35,346 bases of DNA. It comes from Peptococcaceae bacterium (lineage in GTDB: Bacteria > Bacillota > Peptococcia > Peptococcales > Peptococcaceae). How positions within the stretch are numbered: position 1 is the stretch's first letter; every line of letters starts with the position of its first letter. The notes below the pieces were generated by a model that was given only the letters and a program-made list of their open reading frames with translations, was not told the origin of the DNA and made no database searches. Shown piece by piece: positions 9,254 through 26,296 of this stretch. The DNA lies in assembly GCA_030524315.1 (NCBI GenBank), contig JAUNGU010000017.1, positions 1 through 35,346 on the forward strand. The letters run 5' to 3'. The position numbers and the translations under genes were made by a program.

Positions 9254-9335
9254 TGCGGATGAAGGGACTTGAACCCATACGCCTTGCGGCATGCGCACCT
9301 GAAACGCACGCGTCTGCCTATTCCGCCACATCCGC
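9254..9335 (-). tRNA. tRNA-Leu (anticodon CAG)
   Basis: The minus strand reads a class II tRNA of 82 nt. Acceptor arms GCGGATG and CATCCGC pair perfectly. The anticodon stem TGCGT/GCGCA carries the loop TTCAGGT with anticodon CAG, decoding CUG. A long variable arm, TGCCGCAAGGCG, is as expected for Leu, and GGGTTCAAGTCCC marks the T arm. The discriminator base is A, also as expected for Leu. CCA is not encoded (GAG follows), so it must be added by the CCA-adding enzyme. Confidence 0.95.
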
Positions 9336-19228: not shown

Positions 19229-20971
19229 TCAAGCGTCGGCAGCCAGCTGCCAGCGCGCGCCCGCCTGCTGCAGACGCACCATGTGCGGATAGATCGTGCC
19301 TGTTTGCATGAGGGCTGCTGGCGTGCCCGTCTCGGCGACGACGCCGCCTGAGAGGACGACGATGTTGTCGGCAGCGCTGATGGTGCGCATGCGGTGAGCG
19401 ATGATGAGGACGGTCTTGTCCTGGATGAGCTGGCTCAGGGCTTCCTGGATGAGGTTTTCGTTTTCCACGTCGAGGCTCGCCGTCGCTTCGTCCAGGAGAA
19501 TGATCGGCGCATCCTTCAAAAAGGCGCGGGCGATGGACAGCCGCTGGCGCTCGCCGCCGGACAGCTCGCAGCCGTTTTCGCCGATGAGGCTCTGGTAGCC
19601 GTCGGGGAGCTTATTGATGAAGTCCTCGCAGCCGGCGCGACGGGCGGCGGCCATGACCTCCTCGTCGGTGGCGCCTTTGCGGCCGATGCGGATGTTTTCC
19701 ATGACCGTGTTGTTAAAGAGGGTCACATCCTGAAAGACAATCGAATACAGCGTGAGCAGGGTTTCCGGCTCGACCGTCGAAACGTCCATGCCGCCGACGG
19801 TGATGCGGCCACGACTCGCATCCCAGAAGCGCGCCGCCAGACGTGAGGCCGTCGTCTTGCCGCAGCCCGACGGGCCAATGAGTGCCGTGACCTCGCCCTG
19901 CTTGGCGGTGAAGGAGACATCCTCGAGGACCGTCTCGCCGCCGTCGTAGGCAAAGCCGACGTGGTCAAAGACAATGTCGTAGCCGTCGTTGGTGAGCTGG
20001 TCGCTCCCTTCCTGAACGGGATGGAAGAGGATCTCGTTCATGCGGCCAATATTGGTGCGGGTGGAGATGATGGCGGCAAGATTTTGCAGCGCGCCCTCCA
20101 GCGGCGCGTAGAGACGGCTCGCCACAAGCAGGAACATGAAGAAGAGAGGGATGTCAATCTCGCCACGAATGAGCAGCGTCGAGCCGACCAGCGCCACCGT
20201 GGCAATGCCGAATTTGAGCACCGCCGTCGAGGAGGTGACAAAAATCGCCGTGCAAAGCTCGGTGATGATCTGGCGGCCCTCGACGCGGTCGATGAGGGCA
20301 GAGAGGCGATTGAAATAGCTGCCCTCGGCGTTGTTGGATTTGAGATCGGCCATGGCCTCAATGTATTCCTGGACGCCCGTTTCGAGGGCGACATTCACCG
20401 CCGAGGATTTGTTGTTAAAATATTCCTGCACCGGCGCGGAAAAATAGACAATCGCCAGGGCAATCGGCAGCACCCACACCGCCGCCAGCGCCATGCGCCA
20501 ATCGTAGGCAAAGAGGCAGCAGCCGATGAAAACCGTCGAGCACAGAGACCCCGCCAGCTGCGGCACAAAATGGGAGAAGGCCTGCTCCAGCGTCGCGCAA
20601 TCGTCCATAATCGACTTGGTCAAATCGGCCAGGTCTTTTTTTGAGAAAAAGGACAGGGGAATCTTGCGCAGCTTTTCCGCCAACGCGATGCGGCGCACGC
20701 CGCTTTCGCGGTAGGTCGCCAGATAGGTGGCGTTGTATTGAAACCAAGCGCAGATGAAAATGAGCACGAGGCAGACCGCGACGCCCACAGCGTAGAAGGT
20801 GATGCGGCTGCTGCCCAGGGTGCCGTTCATGAGATCGAGGACGAGAAAATAGAGAAGCCCCACCGGGAACATGAAGGACAGGTCCTGGAGCAAGCACGCC
20901 AGGCAGCCCTTGATGAGATCCCGCGCGCCCTGCTCCGAGAGGGCGAAGCGTTTTTGTAATGCGTGAATCAT
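19229..20971 (-). CDS. ABC exporter half-transporter B (TetR-linked pair)
   Basis: This 580-aa protein has an N-terminal six-helix membrane domain (residues about 20-310) fused to an ATPase. Walker A GPSGCGKTT lies near residue 364, the signature LSGGERQR near 468, Walker B IILLDEAT near 485, and the switch histidine is in IIAHRMRT. All motifs are canonical. The ATG at 20971 overlaps the stop of the preceding half-transporter gene (ATGA) and follows GGAGGTGGCACA; an upstream in-frame start lies inside that gene and is rejected. It most likely forms a heterodimer with the protein at 20968-22743. The pair layout resembles IrtAB/YbtPQ-like and multidrug exporters; direction and substrate are not certain. 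Confidence 0.92.
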   Translation of the reverse strand: MIHALQKRFALSEQGARDLIKGCLACLLQDLSFMFPVGLLYFLVLDLMNGTLGSSRITFYAVGVAVCLVLIFICAWFQYNATYLATYRESGVRRIALAEKLRKIPLSFFSKKDLADLTKSIMDDCATLEQAFSHFVPQLAGSLCSTVFIGCCLFAYDWRMALAAVWVLPIALAIVYFSAPVQEYFNNKSSAVNVALETGVQEYIEAMADLKSNNAEGSYFNRLSALIDRVEGRQIITELCTAIFVTSSTAVLKFGIATVALVGSTLLIRGEIDIPLFFMFLLVASRLYAPLEGALQNLAAIISTRTNIGRMNEILFHPVQEGSDQLTNDGYDIVFDHVGFAYDGGETVLEDVSFTAKQGEVTALIGPSGCGKTTASRLAARFWDASRGRITVGGMDVSTVEPETLLTLYSIVFQDVTLFNNTVMENIRIGRKGATDEEVMAAARRAGCEDFINKLPDGYQSLIGENGCELSGGERQRLSIARAFLKDAPIILLDEATASLDVENENLIQEALSQLIQDKTVLIIAHRMRTISAADNIVVLSGGVVAETGTPAALMQTGTIYPHMVRLQQAGARWQLAADA

Positions 20972-22743
20972 TGTGCCACCTCCGTTTTGAGCTGCCAATC
21001 GGCAGATTGGTTGTATTTGTGCCACATCTCGGCAAAGAGGCCGCCGGCGGCGACGAGGTCGTCGTGCTTGCCGCTTTCGACAATTTGCCCGTCGGCCAGG
21101 ACGAAGATGCGGTCGCAGTCGGTAATCGACGAGAGCCGGTGGGCGATCATCAGCACCGTGCGGCCACGAGAGAGGGCCGACAGCGCCTGCTGCACGCGCA
21201 CCTCGTTGTCGGGATCGGCGAAGGCCGTCGCCTCATCGAGAAGCAGAATCGGCGAATTTTTGAGGACGGCGCGGGCGATGGCGATGCGCTGGGCCTCGCC
21301 GCCCGAGAGATAGACGCCGCCGGTGCCGATTTGGGTGTCGATGCCCTCGGGCATTTTCTGGATGATGTCCATGCACTGGGCGGCGTCGAGCGCATGCAGA
21401 ATCTCCTCGCGCGTCGCCTCCGGCTTGGCCAGGCGCACGTTGTCGGCAATGCTGCCTTTGATCATCTGGCTGTTCTGGAAAACGAAGGAGACCGCCTCCA
21501 TCAGCCGTTCTTTTGGAATCTCGCGAATGTCGACGCCGCCAATTTTCACCGCGCCCTCCTGGGGATCAAAGAAGCGCGTCACCAGCGTCGCCAAGGTCGA
21601 CTTGCCGCCGCCCGACGGGCCGACCAGCGCCACCGTCTCGCCCTGGCCAATGTGCAGGGAAATATCGGTGAGGGCGTTTTTCTGGCCGTCGTAGCTGTAG
21701 CTGGCGTGCTCGATGGCAATGTCGTAGCGCGCTGGCACCTGTCCCGGCGTCGCCTCAGGCAGCGGCGCGGCATCCAGCACCTCGTCGATGCGGCCCATGG
21801 CGTCGGCGACGAGCATGCCGTCCTCGCTCATGAACATGATCTTCGTCAGCGTCGTGCCGATGACCGGCGTGATGATGATGTAGAAAATCAGATTGAGAAG
21901 CAGCGCGCCATCTGCCCCGCCGCGGCTAAAGACAATCCCACCGGCGATGAGAAAGGCAAAGACGGCGTTGATGGCCGTCGTGTACAGGAGCATCGGCGTG
22001 CGACACTCCTTGGTGTAGGCGATGGCCCACTTGGCGTAGTCGTCGATGGTCGCCTTGAAGCGGCGGAAGGTAAAAATCGTCTGGCCGAAGGTTTTGACCA
22101 CCGGCACACCGCGCACGTATTCCACCGCCTCGTTGGACATATTGCCGAGGGCGTTCTGGTATTCGCCCATTTTTTCGGCCATGCGCGGGCCGGTCATGCG
22201 CAGCATGCAGAGAAAGCCCAGCACCACCGGTACCAGGCTGAGGAGCCCCAGCCGCCAGTCAAAGGCCAAAAGCAGCACCACCAGCCCAATTGGCGTAGCA
22301 ATGGCCCCCGCCTTGTCGGGCAGGCGATGAGCCAGGTAGGTCTCCGTCGCCGCCGTCGAGACGTTGACAATACGGCGCAGCTTGCCGCTGCCGATTTTTT
22401 CTATAGTGCCCAGGGGCAGGGCGGCGATTTTGGCGAGCAGCTCTTTGCGCAGATTCGCCGCCACGCGAAAGGCGCCCATGTGGGAGCACATCAGCGCAGT
22501 GATGTAGATGAGCATCGAGGCGATGGCAAAAATCACCGCCATCCAGCCGTAGCCGGTGACCGCTGTCGCCTGGCTGTAATCAGGCGCCACCGCCAGGACG
22601 TCGTGCAAAATCCGCCAAATGTACCAAAAAGGCACCAGCGCCAGAAGGGCGCTCACCGCCGAGAGCAGCCAGGAGCCATAAATCAGCACCCGCCTGCCGC
22701 CGGCGATTTGCAAGAGCCGGGAGAGTTGAGATTGCTTGCTCAT
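20968..22743 (-). CDS. ABC exporter half-transporter A (TetR-linked pair)
   Basis: A 591-aa membrane-ATPase fusion like its partner. The membrane domain covers about residues 15-310. Walker A GPSGGGKST lies near residue 374, the signature LSGGEAQR near 478, Walker B ILLLDEAT near 495, and IAHRLSS holds the switch histidine. Both halves have intact catalytic motifs, unlike the degenerate pair at 28921-32567. The start has a strong AAAGGAGG site. It lies 66 bp after the TetR gene on the same strand with no terminator between, so TetR probably controls it. The substrate is unknown. Confidence 0.92.
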   Translation of the reverse strand: MSKQSQLSRLLQIAGGRRVLIYGSWLLSAVSALLALVPFWYIWRILHDVLAVAPDYSQATAVTGYGWMAVIFAIASMLIYITALMCSHMGAFRVAANLRKELLAKIAALPLGTIEKIGSGKLRRIVNVSTAATETYLAHRLPDKAGAIATPIGLVVLLLAFDWRLGLLSLVPVVLGFLCMLRMTGPRMAEKMGEYQNALGNMSNEAVEYVRGVPVVKTFGQTIFTFRRFKATIDDYAKWAIAYTKECRTPMLLYTTAINAVFAFLIAGGIVFSRGGADGALLLNLIFYIIITPVIGTTLTKIMFMSEDGMLVADAMGRIDEVLDAAPLPEATPGQVPARYDIAIEHASYSYDGQKNALTDISLHIGQGETVALVGPSGGGKSTLATLVTRFFDPQEGAVKIGGVDIREIPKERLMEAVSFVFQNSQMIKGSIADNVRLAKPEATREEILHALDAAQCMDIIQKMPEGIDTQIGTGGVYLSGGEAQRIAIARAVLKNSPILLLDEATAFADPDNEVRVQQALSALSRGRTVLMIAHRLSSITDCDRIFVLADGQIVESGKHDDLVAAGGLFAEMWHKYNQSADWQLKTEVAQ

Positions 22744-22809
22744 AAAAATTCCTCCTTTGTCGCGTGCAAGCGTTAGAAACGACTAACCGCAGCGCCAACG
22801 AAAAGGGGC

Positions 22810-23433
22810 TCATTGCCCCATGATCTTCAGCCAACCGGCGGTGTAAAAATCGCGCATCTCGCAATAATAATGCTCCGCCTGGGCCAGTGGCAGCTCGTGG
22901 CGGATGATTTCAAAAAACATGTTGATCATCCCCGTCGTGAGCATGTGCTCAAGCTGGGGATCGATGGTCGGCGCAGGTCTGCCGAGATGGGCAAGCACCT
23001 GCATGTAATCCTCGGTGGACTGCACCTCAATATCCACCATCTCCTCGAGGAGATGGGCAAAGGCCGTGCCCTCGGCGCCAAAGAGCAAAAGCTGCATCGC
23101 CGGTAGATGCTCGGGCGAAAGGGCGTAGCGCAAAATCTCGCGCATGCAATCGTCTGATGCCGTCCCCATGAGCTCCGGCTGGCTTTCCTCGGGCAGCTCG
23201 GCAAAGGCGCGCTGAGCAGCCGTGTAGCTGTCCAAAATAAAGTGGTATTCCTCGCCGACCAGCGCCGCAAAGAGCGCCTCCTTGTTTTTGAAATAGCCAT
23301 AGAGGGCCCCCGTCGTCACGCCTGCCTCCTTGGCAATGCGGCGCAGGGACGCATCCATAAATCCCTTGTCCGTAAATTCCGCCATGGCCGCGGCGCGAAT
23401 TTTTTCGAGGGTCGATTCTTCTTGAACAGTCAT
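22810..23433 (-). CDS. TetR-family repressor
   Basis: This 207-aa regulator has the TetR N-terminal helix-turn-helix at about residues 29-48 (SLRRIAKEAGVTTGALYGYF) and a divergent all-helical ligand-binding domain. I chose ATG 23433, preceded by AAAGGAG; the longer reading frame to 23676 runs through the promoter. A 26-bp inverted repeat lies immediately before the ribosome binding site, so the protein very likely represses its own promoter and, by readthrough, the two ABC genes downstream. The ligand is probably a substrate of that exporter. Confidence 0.93.
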   Translation of the reverse strand: MTVQEESTLEKIRAAAMAEFTDKGFMDASLRRIAKEAGVTTGALYGYFKNKEALFAALVGEEYHFILDSYTAAQRAFAELPEESQPELMGTASDDCMREILRYALSPEHLPAMQLLLFGAEGTAFAHLLEEMVDIEVQSTEDYMQVLAHLGRPAPTIDPQLEHMLTTGMINMFFEIIRHELPLAQAEHYYCEMRDFYTAGWLKIMGQ

Positions 23434-23446
23434 CGTTCGCTCCTTT

Positions 23447-23472
23447 GTAACAATGTTATATAACACTGTTAC
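23447..23472. promoter_or_regulatory. operator of the TetR-ABC operon
   Basis: Two 13-bp arms, GTAACAATGTTAT (23447-23459) and ATAACACTGTTAC (23460-23472), are inverted copies that differ at one position. The repeat abuts the -10 box of the TetR promoter, where a bound dimer or dimer pair would block transcription. Confidence 0.88.
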
Positions 23473-23502
23473 ATCGTAATATAAAAATCCGCCCGCTGTC
23501 AA
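23473..23502 (-). promoter_or_regulatory. promoter of the TetR-ABC operon
   Basis: On the minus strand a perfect TTGACA (23497-23502) is followed 18 bp later by TACGAT (23473-23478). The -10 box is weak but touches the operator. Confidence 0.65.
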
Positions 23503-23522
23503 TAGCGAAAAATATGTGAACG

Positions 23523-23539
23523 GGCGAAATTTTTTCGCC
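23523..23539. repeat. AT-core palindromic motif, copy 3
   Basis: GGCGAAATTTTTTCGCC is an inverted repeat with perfect seven-base arms, twenty bases behind the -35 box of the TetR promoter. Confidence 0.65.
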
Positions 23540-23554
23540 GCTCGCGTCGGGCGC

Positions 23555-23593
23555 AAAAAAATCGCGCGCCCTCCTCGTTGGAGAACGCGCGAT
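23555..23593 (-). terminator. intrinsic terminator of the GNAT gene
   Basis: On the minus strand ATCGCGCG (plus-strand 23586-23593) pairs perfectly with CGCGCGAT (23561-23568) and is followed by a T run. Confidence 0.9.
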
Positions 23594-23605
23594 GGCCGTG
23601 TGATT

Positions 23606-24139
23606 TTAGTTGATAGGGAAAATTTTTGCTGCGGGCATCCATTTTGGACGCACGGTGGCCAGACACCTTGGATCAAAATCGGTCGTTGTGGCGAGAATGT
23701 GGTAGGTCATGCAGCCGCTGTCCAGGGCGTAGCCCGTCAGGTGGAAGCCGTTTTTTGCATAAAAGGCCAGCCGCTTGGCGCGCTCGACGTAGTTGGGCGC
23801 CGTTGTCACCACCGGCTCAATGTTGAGGGTCAGTGTAAGCGGCGCATAGCGCGCCTTGAGCCAGCCGAGCATCTCAGAGCCCACGCCTCGGCCCCGCGCC
23901 TGTGGCGCCACCGCCAGATAGAGCACAAAGGCCACCGACTCTCCGCGCACCACATATGCCATGCCGCTGAACCTGCCCACATCGTAAAACGCCCAAAAAT
24001 CCACCGACGGCACCGCGCTGTAGGCTTGTAACAGCGCAAAAGGAAACCGCTCCTCCTTGGGAAACGCCTGCAAATACAACTCCCGCGCCCGCCCACACGA
24101 CCGCGTCCCAACCGCCACCCGCTTCGCTTGTAAATTCAT
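23606..24139 (-). CDS. GNAT-family N-acetyltransferase
   Basis: This 177-aa protein has the GNAT acetyl-CoA site: the strand VAFVLYLAVAPQARGRGVGSEM contains the Q/RxxGxG/A loop (QARGRGVG). The region YAKNGFHLTGYAL near residue 125 is the usual motif B end. The acceptor cannot be told. The ATG follows GAGGAGCG. It has its own promoter and terminator. Relatives include aminoglycoside, ribosomal-protein and small-molecule acetyltransferases. Confidence 0.85.
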   Translation of the reverse strand: MNLQAKRVAVGTRSCGRARELYLQAFPKEERFPFALLQAYSAVPSVDFWAFYDVGRFSGMAYVVRGESVAFVLYLAVAPQARGRGVGSEMLGWLKARYAPLTLTLNIEPVVTTAPNYVERAKRLAFYAKNGFHLTGYALDSGCMTYHILATTTDFDPRCLATVRPKWMPAAKIFPIN

Positions 24140-24200: not shown

Positions 24201-24225
24201 AAAAGCGCGCCCTTGCGAGCGCGCT
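24201..24225 (-). terminator. terminator of the ppk2/lysine-tail operon
   Basis: On the minus strand AGCGCGC pairs with GCGCGCT (24204-24210 with 24219-24225), followed by TTTT. The T run is short, so strength is moderate. Confidence 0.7.
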
Positions 24226-24231
24226 GCAAGC

Positions 24232-24579
24232 TTATTTTTTCTTTGCTTTCTTTTTATCCTTCTTCTTGGATTTCTTTTTGTCCTTTTTCTTCTCTTGCTT
24301 TTTCTTTTTCTTCTTATCTTTCTTCTTCGACTTCTTCTTTTTGTCGGCTTTCTTCTTATCCTTCTTGGATTTTTTTGCGGCTTTCTTTTTCTTCACTGGC
24401 GCTTCTTCCTCGAGGGGTTCGGCTTCGCTGACGATGATGGCGTCTTCGGTGGCGGCGACGAGGATGGGTGCCATTTCTAGGGTGAGGTCGCCGGTGGTTT
24501 CTGGGGCGTCATCTTCTGGCAGCGGTGGCACGAGGCGAGTGGCGTCTAGGAGTTCTTTGTCGTCGGTTGGGGTGCTCAT
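24232..24579 (-). CDS. protein with acidic N-terminus and poly-lysine tail, coupled to PPK2
   Basis: I do not recognise this 115-aa protein. Residues 1-62 are acidic (17 Asp/Glu, about two basic residues) and proline-containing. Residues 63-115 are almost pure lysine: 39 of 53 positions, in KKK blocks broken by single S, D, A or QE (for example KKKSKKKDKKK, which occurs twice). It has no signal peptide or membrane helix and is probably disordered. Its ATG overlaps the PPK2 stop (ATGA), with AGGAAG just upstream inside ppk2, so the two are made together. Lysine-rich stretches bind polyphosphate, and eukaryotic acidic/serine/lysine tracts are polyphosphate targets. A polyphosphate-binding partner or modulator of the kinase is therefore my inference. 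A DNA- or RNA-binding tail is the main alternative. Confidence 0.85.
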   Translation of the reverse strand: MSTPTDDKELLDATRLVPPLPEDDAPETTGDLTLEMAPILVAATEDAIIVSEAEPLEEEAPVKKKKAAKKSKKDKKKADKKKKSKKKDKKKKKKQEKKKDKKKSKKKDKKKAKKK

Positions 24580-26126
24580 TGGTCGGTCTTCCTTTCTTCA
24601 TTAACAGGTGCGGCGTTGTCATCAGCAATGTCTTGTTCGATGGTTTTTTCGAGGTCCTTGGCAGGATGGTGGACGCCTTTTTTCTCCAGGGCTTTGCTGG
24701 CGGCGTCGATGAAGTGCTCGAGGACGTGGATGCGCGCGTATTGCTTGCTCATGCTTGGGAGCACGATCCATGGCGCGTGCATCGAGGAGGTGCGCACGAC
24801 CATGTCGTTCATGGCGTCGACGTAGGCGTCAAACTTGTCGTGGTTGCGCCAGTCTTCGGCGGTAATTTTGTAGTTCTTTTCGGGGGTGTTTTCACGGTCC
24901 TTGAAGCGTGCGAGTTGTTCTTCCTTGTCGATAATCAGGAGGAACTTGAGGATGATGTAGCCGTCGGCGCAGAGGGATTCTTCCATTTCGTTGATCTCGG
25001 CGTAGGCTTCCTGCCAGCGCTGGGTGTTGGCAAAGCCTTCGATGCGCTCGACCATGACGCGACCATACCAGCTGCGGTCGTAGATGGTGAGGTGGCCGGG
25101 CGTTGGGAAGGTTTGGTAGAAGCGCCAGAGATAGTGGTGTGCGAGCTCGTACTTGGTTGGCGCGGCGGTGGTGGCGACGCTGTAGCTGCGCGGGTCCATC
25201 TGGCGGGTGAGGCGCTTGATGCAGCCGCCCTTGCCCGAGGCGTCGGTGCCTTCAAAGACGACGATCGTCGGGATCTGGTGCAGATAGAGCTGATAGAGGA
25301 GCTCGGCGGCGGTTTTTTGCAGCGGGCGCAGACGCTCGCGGTACTCTTTTTCGTCGAGGGTCTTGGTCAGGTCTACCTGGGACAGGGGCTTGTTGATGAC
25401 TGGTGGCAGAGGCTGCGCCGTGGTTGGCTCGGGTTTGTCGAGGTGCCACTGGAGGTTTTGGATGAGGGTGACGAGGATTTGCTTGGACGCCTTCTTTTTG
25501 TCGGCGGCGTCGATGACGCGCCATGGACAGGCGAGGGTGCCGGTGTCGTTGAGAATGCGTTCAAAATGGTGGCGGAATTTTTTGTAATGCTTGAGCTGGT
25601 ACTTGTCAAAGTCTTCCAAGAGAAAGCTACGGCTCTTGTCCTTGGCGAGATCGTCGAGGGATTTTTCCATTTCCTCCTCGCTCTGGTCCATGAAAAATTT
25701 CACCACCAGGCAGCCGTCGTCGGTGAGCAGGCGCTCGACAAAGGAAATGTCGCGCACCTCGTGGAGGTAATCCACCTCGTTGATGTCGGGATGGTGCATG
25801 AGCTCGCGGTAGAAGCTGTGGTCAAAAATGGCGACGCGGCCGTGTACCGGGAAGGATTGGAAAAATCGCCAGAGCATCGGGTGCGCCTTGTCGACGTCGG
25901 TGGCGTCGGCAAACTGGGTGAGGTGATAGTAGCGCGGGTCGAGCTCGCGCACGAGGTCGTTTAAGATCTGGCCCTTGCCGGTGCCCTCCCAGCCCGAAAG
26001 GAGAATGAGCAGGCTCTTATCTGTGTCCTTGAGCTGGCGCTGCAGGGTCGCCAATTTTTCGCCGAGCTCAGAAATTTTGAGCTGCATCAGGGGATCGTCC
26101 TTGGGAAAATCGAGTTTTTTTAACAT
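24576..26126 (-). CDS. two-domain polyphosphate:AMP phosphotransferase (PPK2 family)
   Basis: This 516-aa enzyme has two tandem PPK2 domains, the arrangement of class II PPK2 (polyphosphate:AMP phosphotransferase), which uses polyphosphate to turn AMP, or a related NMP, into the diphosphate. Domain 2 is the likely catalytic half: Walker A EGTDASGKGG at 292-301, Walker B and lid in YDRSWYGRVMVER at 349-361, and EDWRNHDKFDAY near 424. Domain 1 (about 15-230) has the variant loop GWEGTGKG at 45-52 and FDHSFYREL, less typical and perhaps structural. AAAGGAG precedes the ATG. The downstream lysine-tail gene is translationally coupled. No ppk1 or ppx is in the window. Confidence 0.93.
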   Translation of the reverse strand: MLKKLDFPKDDPLMQLKISELGEKLATLQRQLKDTDKSLLILLSGWEGTGKGQILNDLVRELDPRYYHLTQFADATDVDKAHPMLWRFFQSFPVHGRVAIFDHSFYRELMHHPDINEVDYLHEVRDISFVERLLTDDGCLVVKFFMDQSEEEMEKSLDDLAKDKSRSFLLEDFDKYQLKHYKKFRHHFERILNDTGTLACPWRVIDAADKKKASKQILVTLIQNLQWHLDKPEPTTAQPLPPVINKPLSQVDLTKTLDEKEYRERLRPLQKTAAELLYQLYLHQIPTIVVFEGTDASGKGGCIKRLTRQMDPRSYSVATTAAPTKYELAHHYLWRFYQTFPTPGHLTIYDRSWYGRVMVERIEGFANTQRWQEAYAEINEMEESLCADGYIILKFLLIIDKEEQLARFKDRENTPEKNYKITAEDWRNHDKFDAYVDAMNDMVVRTSSMHAPWIVLPSMSKQYARIHVLEHFIDAASKALEKKGVHHPAKDLEKTIEQDIADDNAAPVNEERKTDQ

Positions 26127-26172
26127 ATGATCACTCCTTTACCAGGAATATATTTCTTCTTTACTTACTCAT

Positions 26173-26181
26173 ATTATAGCA
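26173..26181 (-). promoter_or_regulatory. extended -10 promoter of ppk2
   Basis: On the minus strand TGCTATAAT gives a perfect -10 box with TGn extension, 47 bp before the start. No clear -35 box is seen; the sequence there is CGAAATTTTGCGC, related to the AT-core motif found at other promoters. Confidence 0.65.
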
Positions 26182-26263: not shown

Positions 26264-26296
26264 AAAAAAATTGAGCCACCGCAGCGGGTGGCTCAG
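26264..26296 (-). terminator. intrinsic terminator of the MFS gene
   Basis: On the minus strand GAGCCACC pairs perfectly with GGTGGCTC (26273-26280 with 26287-26294), followed by AATTTTTTT. Confidence 0.92.

Follow-up and report, generated by a model that had tools for sequence, protein, structure and literature searches.

PASK tracts are defined as stretches of 20 amino acids in which at least 75% are D, E, S or K, with at least one K (PMC12345225). Two P. aeruginosa proteins with 9 Lys in 20 amino acids, including 4 in a row, bound polyphosphate (polyP) (PMC12077175), and the current view is that lysine and polyP attach non-covalently (PMC12345225, PMC12077175). AlgP of Pseudomonas, which has a tail of KPAA repeats, localises to polyP granules, binds DNA and affects granule spacing (PMC9239181). 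Positioning of granules on the nucleoid has been proposed for AlgP and PhaF (PMC9239181 for AlgP). CHAD proteins are dedicated polyP binders encoded in polyP operons (PMC6537752).

The locus described here lies in a window of 35,346 nucleotides (the whole stretch of DNA that was analysed) from a Peptococcaceae bacterium. It encodes a small protein with an acidic N-terminal half and a dense C-terminal lysine tail, directly behind a PPK2-type polyP kinase. Any polycation binds polyP, and unrelated target proteins have been the main subject of work on lysine binding to polyP. To our knowledge, how bacteria hold polyP near its enzymes, and how granules are nucleated and sized outside Proteobacteria, is poorly known.

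Operon anatomy and the PPK2 enzyme

The features of the locus are as follows.

26272..26295, minus strand: terminator of the upstream MFS gene, which bounds the two-gene unit
26173..26181, minus strand: extended -10 element TGCTATAAT, 5' of ppk2, found by eye
26134..26140, minus strand: Shine-Dalgarno-like AAAGGAG of ppk2, read from the sequence
24576..26126, minus strand: ppk2, encoding a two-domain (fused) PPK2 of 516 aa, ATG start
24588..24595, minus strand: Shine-Dalgarno-like AAAGGAAG of the lysine-tail ORF, within the end of ppk2, read from the sequence
24576..24579, minus strand: ATGA stop/start overlap (TGA of ppk2 and ATG of the lysine-tail ORF), from the sequence
24232..24579, minus strand: lysine-tail ORF, the second gene of the operon, encoding an acidic/poly-lysine protein of 115 aa
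24394..24579, minus strand: acidic, Pro/Ala-rich N-terminal 62 residues, predicted to be unstructured
24235..24393, minus strand: lysine tail of 53 residues, by composition
24204..24225, minus strand: intrinsic terminator (hairpin) common to both genes

The MFS gene ends in its own terminator (26295-26272), so ppk2 and the lysine-tail ORF stand as a two-gene unit and are, judged by anatomy, a two-gene operon. The hairpin directly past the lysine-tail ORF has 9 pairs, 7 of them GC, followed by TTTGCTT. The extended -10 element was not called by a two-hexamer promoter scan. An earlier note on this DNA had described an ATGA overlap between the genes, translational coupling, one terminator for both, a two-domain PPK2, and a small protein with acidic first 62 residues and 39 Lys in the last 53. 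The overlap is present at 24576-24579 and supports the coupling, the hairpin at 24225-24204 (minus strand) serves both genes, PF03976 matches twice in one chain, and the recounted composition is as claimed.

Elsewhere in the window, a GNAT acetyltransferase gene (23606-24139, minus strand) with a weak match to PRK10562, an N-acetyltransferase model, lies directly 3' of the operon terminator; acetylation of the lysine tail by its product is conceivable. Two ABC half-transporter genes that overlap each other and a gene for a TetR regulator (19229-23676, minus strand) have a typical drug-export layout. The sole Rfam match in the window is a tRNA gene (9254-9335, minus strand).

The two PF03976 stretches in the ppk2 product (E=2.1e-116) have genome matches at both halves. 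The product scores 532.7 bits against TIGR03708, just under the curated cut-off of 547.65, so an annotation as polyP:AMP phosphotransferase is likely, not certified. Its nearest solved structure is P. aeruginosa PA3455 (3czp_A, E=2.2e-103). The C domain contains EGTDASGKGG (Walker A with Asp) and DRSWYG with Gly 355, and a Gly after Walker B is the signature of class II (nucleoside monophosphate) PPK2 (PMC8776046). In the alignment with 3czp, G355 falls on the Gly that follows Walker B in the active-type domain; it equals G367 of PA3455 only if a 2-residue tag offset is assumed. The N domain has GWEGTGKG, without the Walker A Asp of the C domain, and is probably non-catalytic, resembling in this the N domain of PA3455, which is inactive. 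A C-terminal extension (residues 483-516) is missing in relatives. In a PPK2 tree the protein sits on a long branch, with proteins from Carnobacteriaceae, Aerococcaceae, Erysipelothrix and the genome G002; long branches meet at that place, so we do not claim horizontal transfer.

The host genome also contains an overlapping Ppx/GppA-ppk1 pair on contig C86, and polyP synthesis is therefore expected. Its own PPK1 (L106:1564-3879, contig C86) ends in a low-complexity linker and APQTFMERLKYVLFGKF. Short amphipathic PPK1 ends of this kind occur in G001, G002, G003 and several phylum relatives, and are perhaps membrane or partner anchors.

The lysine-tail protein

Residues 1-62 include 17 D/E and 2 K/R (net charge -15), and residues 63-115 consist of 39 K, 5 D, 4 A, 3 S, 1 Q and 1 E (net +33). 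The last 32 residues follow a loose KXKK period, where X is S, D, K, E, D, S, D and A; the period-4 register over the whole tail has p=0.012. The protein has no Pfam or NCBIfam match. A single-sequence AlphaFold model, too weak to be informative (pTM 0.32), gives coil for residues 1-71 and helix in the tail only, with a pLDDT of 55-65 over the N-terminal 62 residues. The frame is open for just 6 codons 5' of the ATG. Closure at that point rules out a frameshift fusion or extension of PPK2, and the ORF thus encodes a separate protein.

The assembly (2.14 Mb, 87% complete) has a single occurrence of the KKKxKKKK codon pattern, in the lysine-tail ORF; the KKKxKKK codon pattern matches six times in the genome, each time inside the same ORF. 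The dense lysine tract is the only one of its kind in the assembly. The tail reaches 16 Lys in 20 residues, with a run of 6, and holds 34 PASK windows by itself. It exceeds the published values for polyP binding given above, and on this measure polyP binding by the tail is likely.

Lys codons in the tail are 23 AAG and 16 AAA, the same ratio as in ppk2 (25/17), and traces of 12- and 24-nt repeats persist in the DNA. The mixed synonymous codons at a ppk2-like ratio argue against a recent microsatellite of identical, slippage-made copies. With 39 of 53 codons immediately 5' of the terminator specifying Lys, the A-rich tract could act on the mRNA, stalling or slowing ribosomes near the terminator to tune expression or mRNA stability, with the peptide of minor importance. 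We consider this very improbable. The tract lies downstream of ppk2, so ppk2 would be affected only via mRNA decay, and the acidic half and the lysine tails fused to PPK1 in another genus (g6, below) would be left unexplained.

Lysine-rich partners of polyP kinases in relatives

The host genus is a singleton among the genomes compared (13 in the family, 21 in the order, 46 in the class), and a fused PPK2 is present in 4 of the 46 class genomes, host included. We found no lysine-rich ORF beside fused ppk2 in 83 related genes, made up of 3 from order relatives and 80 named-genome loci (Carnobacteriaceae, Aerococcaceae, Erysipelothrix and others; best identity about 50%); one ppk2 locus scanned had merely 12 bp of downstream DNA. 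The earlier note had staked its reading on finding the ORF next to ppk2 in close relatives. Taken narrowly, the count goes against it, yet the nearest genes are only about 50% identical and the genus stands alone.

The other 20 genomes of the order have no credible match to the lysine-tail ORF, and most matches to the KKKxKKK DNA pattern across the order are out of frame or in poly-A. Plasmid searches gave no match. In a phylum sample of PPK2 (20 loci, every ORF scanned), a lysine ORF lies beside the PPK2 gene only in G257. The operon is unique so far. With no ortholog and a singleton genus, an argument from orthology is impossible and homology cannot prove function.

The missing ortholog would fit a young or nearly neutral ORF, in which a low-complexity tract has expanded and is translated through leakage from ppk2 without serving any selected function. 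The remnants of 12/24-nt tandem units within the tail and the position at the extreme end of the transcript would fit it too. Such an ORF would not be expected to have its own Shine-Dalgarno sequence and an exact overlap, or Lys codons that match those of ppk2 and are not slippage-identical copies. A 39-Lys product is also costly, and there are parallels at other ppk genes. We regard this origin as distinctly unlikely.

The parallel in cis is a lysine-rich C tail on all four PPK1 copies of genus g6, in the host's family (two in G005, one each in G009 and G011), which were reached via weak lysine matches to the lysine-tail ORF.

L110:3165-5567, PPK1 of g6 with lysine tail
L111:2246-4474, PPK1 of g6 with lysine tail
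L112:2282-4675, PPK1 of g6 with lysine tail
L113:3846-6251, PPK1 of g6 with lysine tail

These tails have 69-77 residues after DSQ, with 24-28 Lys, a net charge of +20 to +22 and a QYGF(L/I)(K/R)K motif close to the end; the best 40-aa windows contain 17-20 Lys. None of 46 other PPK1s (6 from the order, including the host's own, and 40 from the phylum sample) has a lysine tail or more than 12 Lys per 40-aa window. In G009, a single-domain PPK2 gene adjoins the gene for the lysine-tailed PPK1 and is divergent from it.

The parallel in trans is a 148-aa acidic/lysine protein in G257, met while scanning ORFs around a sample of ppk genes. Its gene lies between ppk1 and ppk2 and has its own Shine-Dalgarno sequence. 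An order-wide whole-genome search, blind to ppk, found homologs in genus g33 (E to 4e-15), and this search supplied all 12 loci of the family except the first (G257).

L221:1547-1993; L243-L251 and L253, acidic/coiled-coil/lysine-CKC family, beside ppk1 and/or ppk2

At 11 of the 12 loci, ppk1 and/or ppk2 lies 20-304 bp from the family gene. The sole exception is a second copy in G363, where the ppk-adjacent copy is shortened (71 aa). The N half contains repeats and has a net charge of -10 to -26 in full-length members, and the C half is lysine-rich (net +13 to +20). Family members have a coiled coil and a lysine run; their CKC...CKC end (KVKCKCKxKxVxxxxCKCK) is invariant, and its paired CKC motifs look metal-binding. 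In the AlphaFold prediction (pTM 0.34) the N part is disordered, and the rest comprises a helix and a small hairpin. No Pfam or NCBIfam model matches above its curated cut-off, and we found no description of the family in the non-subscription literature. Its PPK1 partners are without a lysine tail. Directly ahead of ppk1, the g33 ppk clusters (L244:7841-9367 and similar loci) also encode a second Ppx/GppA-like protein, which has a match to an HD domain; this comes in addition to a divergent Ppx gene.

BLASTP of the lysine-tail ORF against this family gave E=34. Orthology was rejected, the N halves scoring at best 52 against a shuffle mean of 48.5 (p=0.29), and a DLTLExAP match between the N halves is no better than shuffles. 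In the absence of detectable homology the likeness is architectural. By architecture only, the lysine-tail ORF appears to be the same kind of solution as the family and not a member of it.

Possible roles and comparison with known systems

Dense basic tails also occur where no polyP link is seen, in a PSP1-like protein of the host's family (L092) and in a small membrane protein of G008 with a lysine-rich C-terminal tail (L132:1460-1831, minus strand). Such tails on non-polyP proteins of the host's family (L092) would suit a histone H1-like nucleic-acid binder, whose tail binds DNA or RNA and whose contact with polyP is incidental or a bridge that sets granules on the nucleoid. AlgP also speaks for this: with its KPAA-repeat tail it is located on polyP granules, whose spacing it affects, and it binds DNA (PMC9239181). 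The 4-residue unit here, however, is KXKK with Asp/Ser/Glu and not KPAA, and neither Pfam nor the weak single-sequence model gave sign of a folded N-terminal domain of DNA-binding or phasin-like type. The genome's only such tail belongs to an ORF coupled with the gene for a polyP enzyme, and in g6 PPK1 itself carries lysine tails. We judge a nucleic-acid binder to be unlikely.

We lean, by a little, towards reading the 115-aa protein as a dedicated polyP-binding accessory of its coupled PPK2, which tethers or buffers polyP. The coupling to PPK2, together with the lack of any other such tract in the genome, argues for a role with PPK2. The cationic tail would wrap polyP chains non-covalently, and the acidic half would keep the free protein soluble. 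By competing for the tail within the same molecule, the acidic half would also let itself be displaced by long chains only, and it may touch the basic surface at which polyP enters PPK2. In this way the protein would concentrate long polyP beside PPK2 as its substrate for phosphorylating AMP (or another NMP), and would buffer or condense free polyP.

Several observations weigh against the accessory reading. At the parallel loci the synthase PPK1 is a partner no less often than PPK2. PolyP is bound by any polycation, and L092 and L132 have dense basic tails with no polyP link seen. There is no ortholog, and the N half is no closer to the acidic/lysine-CKC family than shuffles are. The comparative evidence, from the g6 PPK1 tails and the acidic/lysine-CKC family beside ppk, favours a link to polyP. 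AlgP at its granules (PMC9239181) and the CHAD proteins (PMC6537752) are precedents for the accessory reading. The earlier note had proposed that the protein tethers polyP near the kinase, buffers it or links it to nucleic acid; its interpretation is partly supported, and the polyP link is the part that gains from these two parallels.

Similar lysine-rich proteins may hold polyP near the enzymes that make and use it. More tentatively, we suggest that lysine-rich polyP-holding modules could be recurrent, and probably convergent, at the polyP-kinase loci of the phylum, as a scaffold or coacervate that channels polyP between the synthase and PPK2 and sets granule size. Equally provisional is a division into three forms: in trans behind a fused PPK2, in cis as a PPK1 tail (g6), and as a lysine-CKC protein (g33, G257). 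The g6 PPK1 tails and the acidic/lysine protein of the ppk1-ppk2 clusters would each meet the same need in a way of its own. If the lysine module belongs with polyP kinases, it would offer a system that is simple in genetic terms and open to testing, and would draw attention to a family of proteins in ppk clusters that is still uncharacterised. A polyP tether may also improve substrate supply in PPK2-based ATP regeneration.

The acidic/lysine-CKC proteins are like the lysine-tail protein in being small, with an acidic N half, a lysine-rich C end and a ppk-adjacent gene, and differ in the coiled coil and CKC motifs, both of which the lysine-tail protein lacks in alignment. CHAD proteins are likewise stand-alone and encoded with polyP enzymes, whereas CHAD is a folded helical domain, and Pfam did not match CHAD (PF05235) in the lysine-tail protein. 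AlgP and the lysine-tail protein share a disordered, lysine-rich C-terminal repeat with a 4-residue period, and AlgP is polyP-linked. In AlgP the N domain is helical and the repeats are KPAA, whereas the protein here is small and ppk2-coupled, with KXKK units and an acidic N half predicted to be disordered; we claim no homology between the two, and the tail, being without Pro, contains no KPAA-type repeats (AlgP/PhaF).

Compared with PASK and lysine polyphosphate modification (KPM) proteins, the tail qualifies as a PASK tract and is denser in Lys than proven KPM targets. Most of the bacterial examples known are factors of translation or of the ribosome that polyP modulates, whereas this putative polyP-binding tail is encoded in a polyP-kinase operon. 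The PPK2 itself shares its fused domains, along 468 residues, with the two-domain class II enzymes PA3455 (3czp) and Acinetobacter PAP. Like PA3455, it has an active-type C domain (Walker A with Asp, class II Gly) and an N domain without the catalytic Asp. It differs from the known two-domain class II enzymes in its sub-cut-off TIGR03708 score, in the extension at residues 483-516, and in the lysine-tail ORF to which its gene is coupled.
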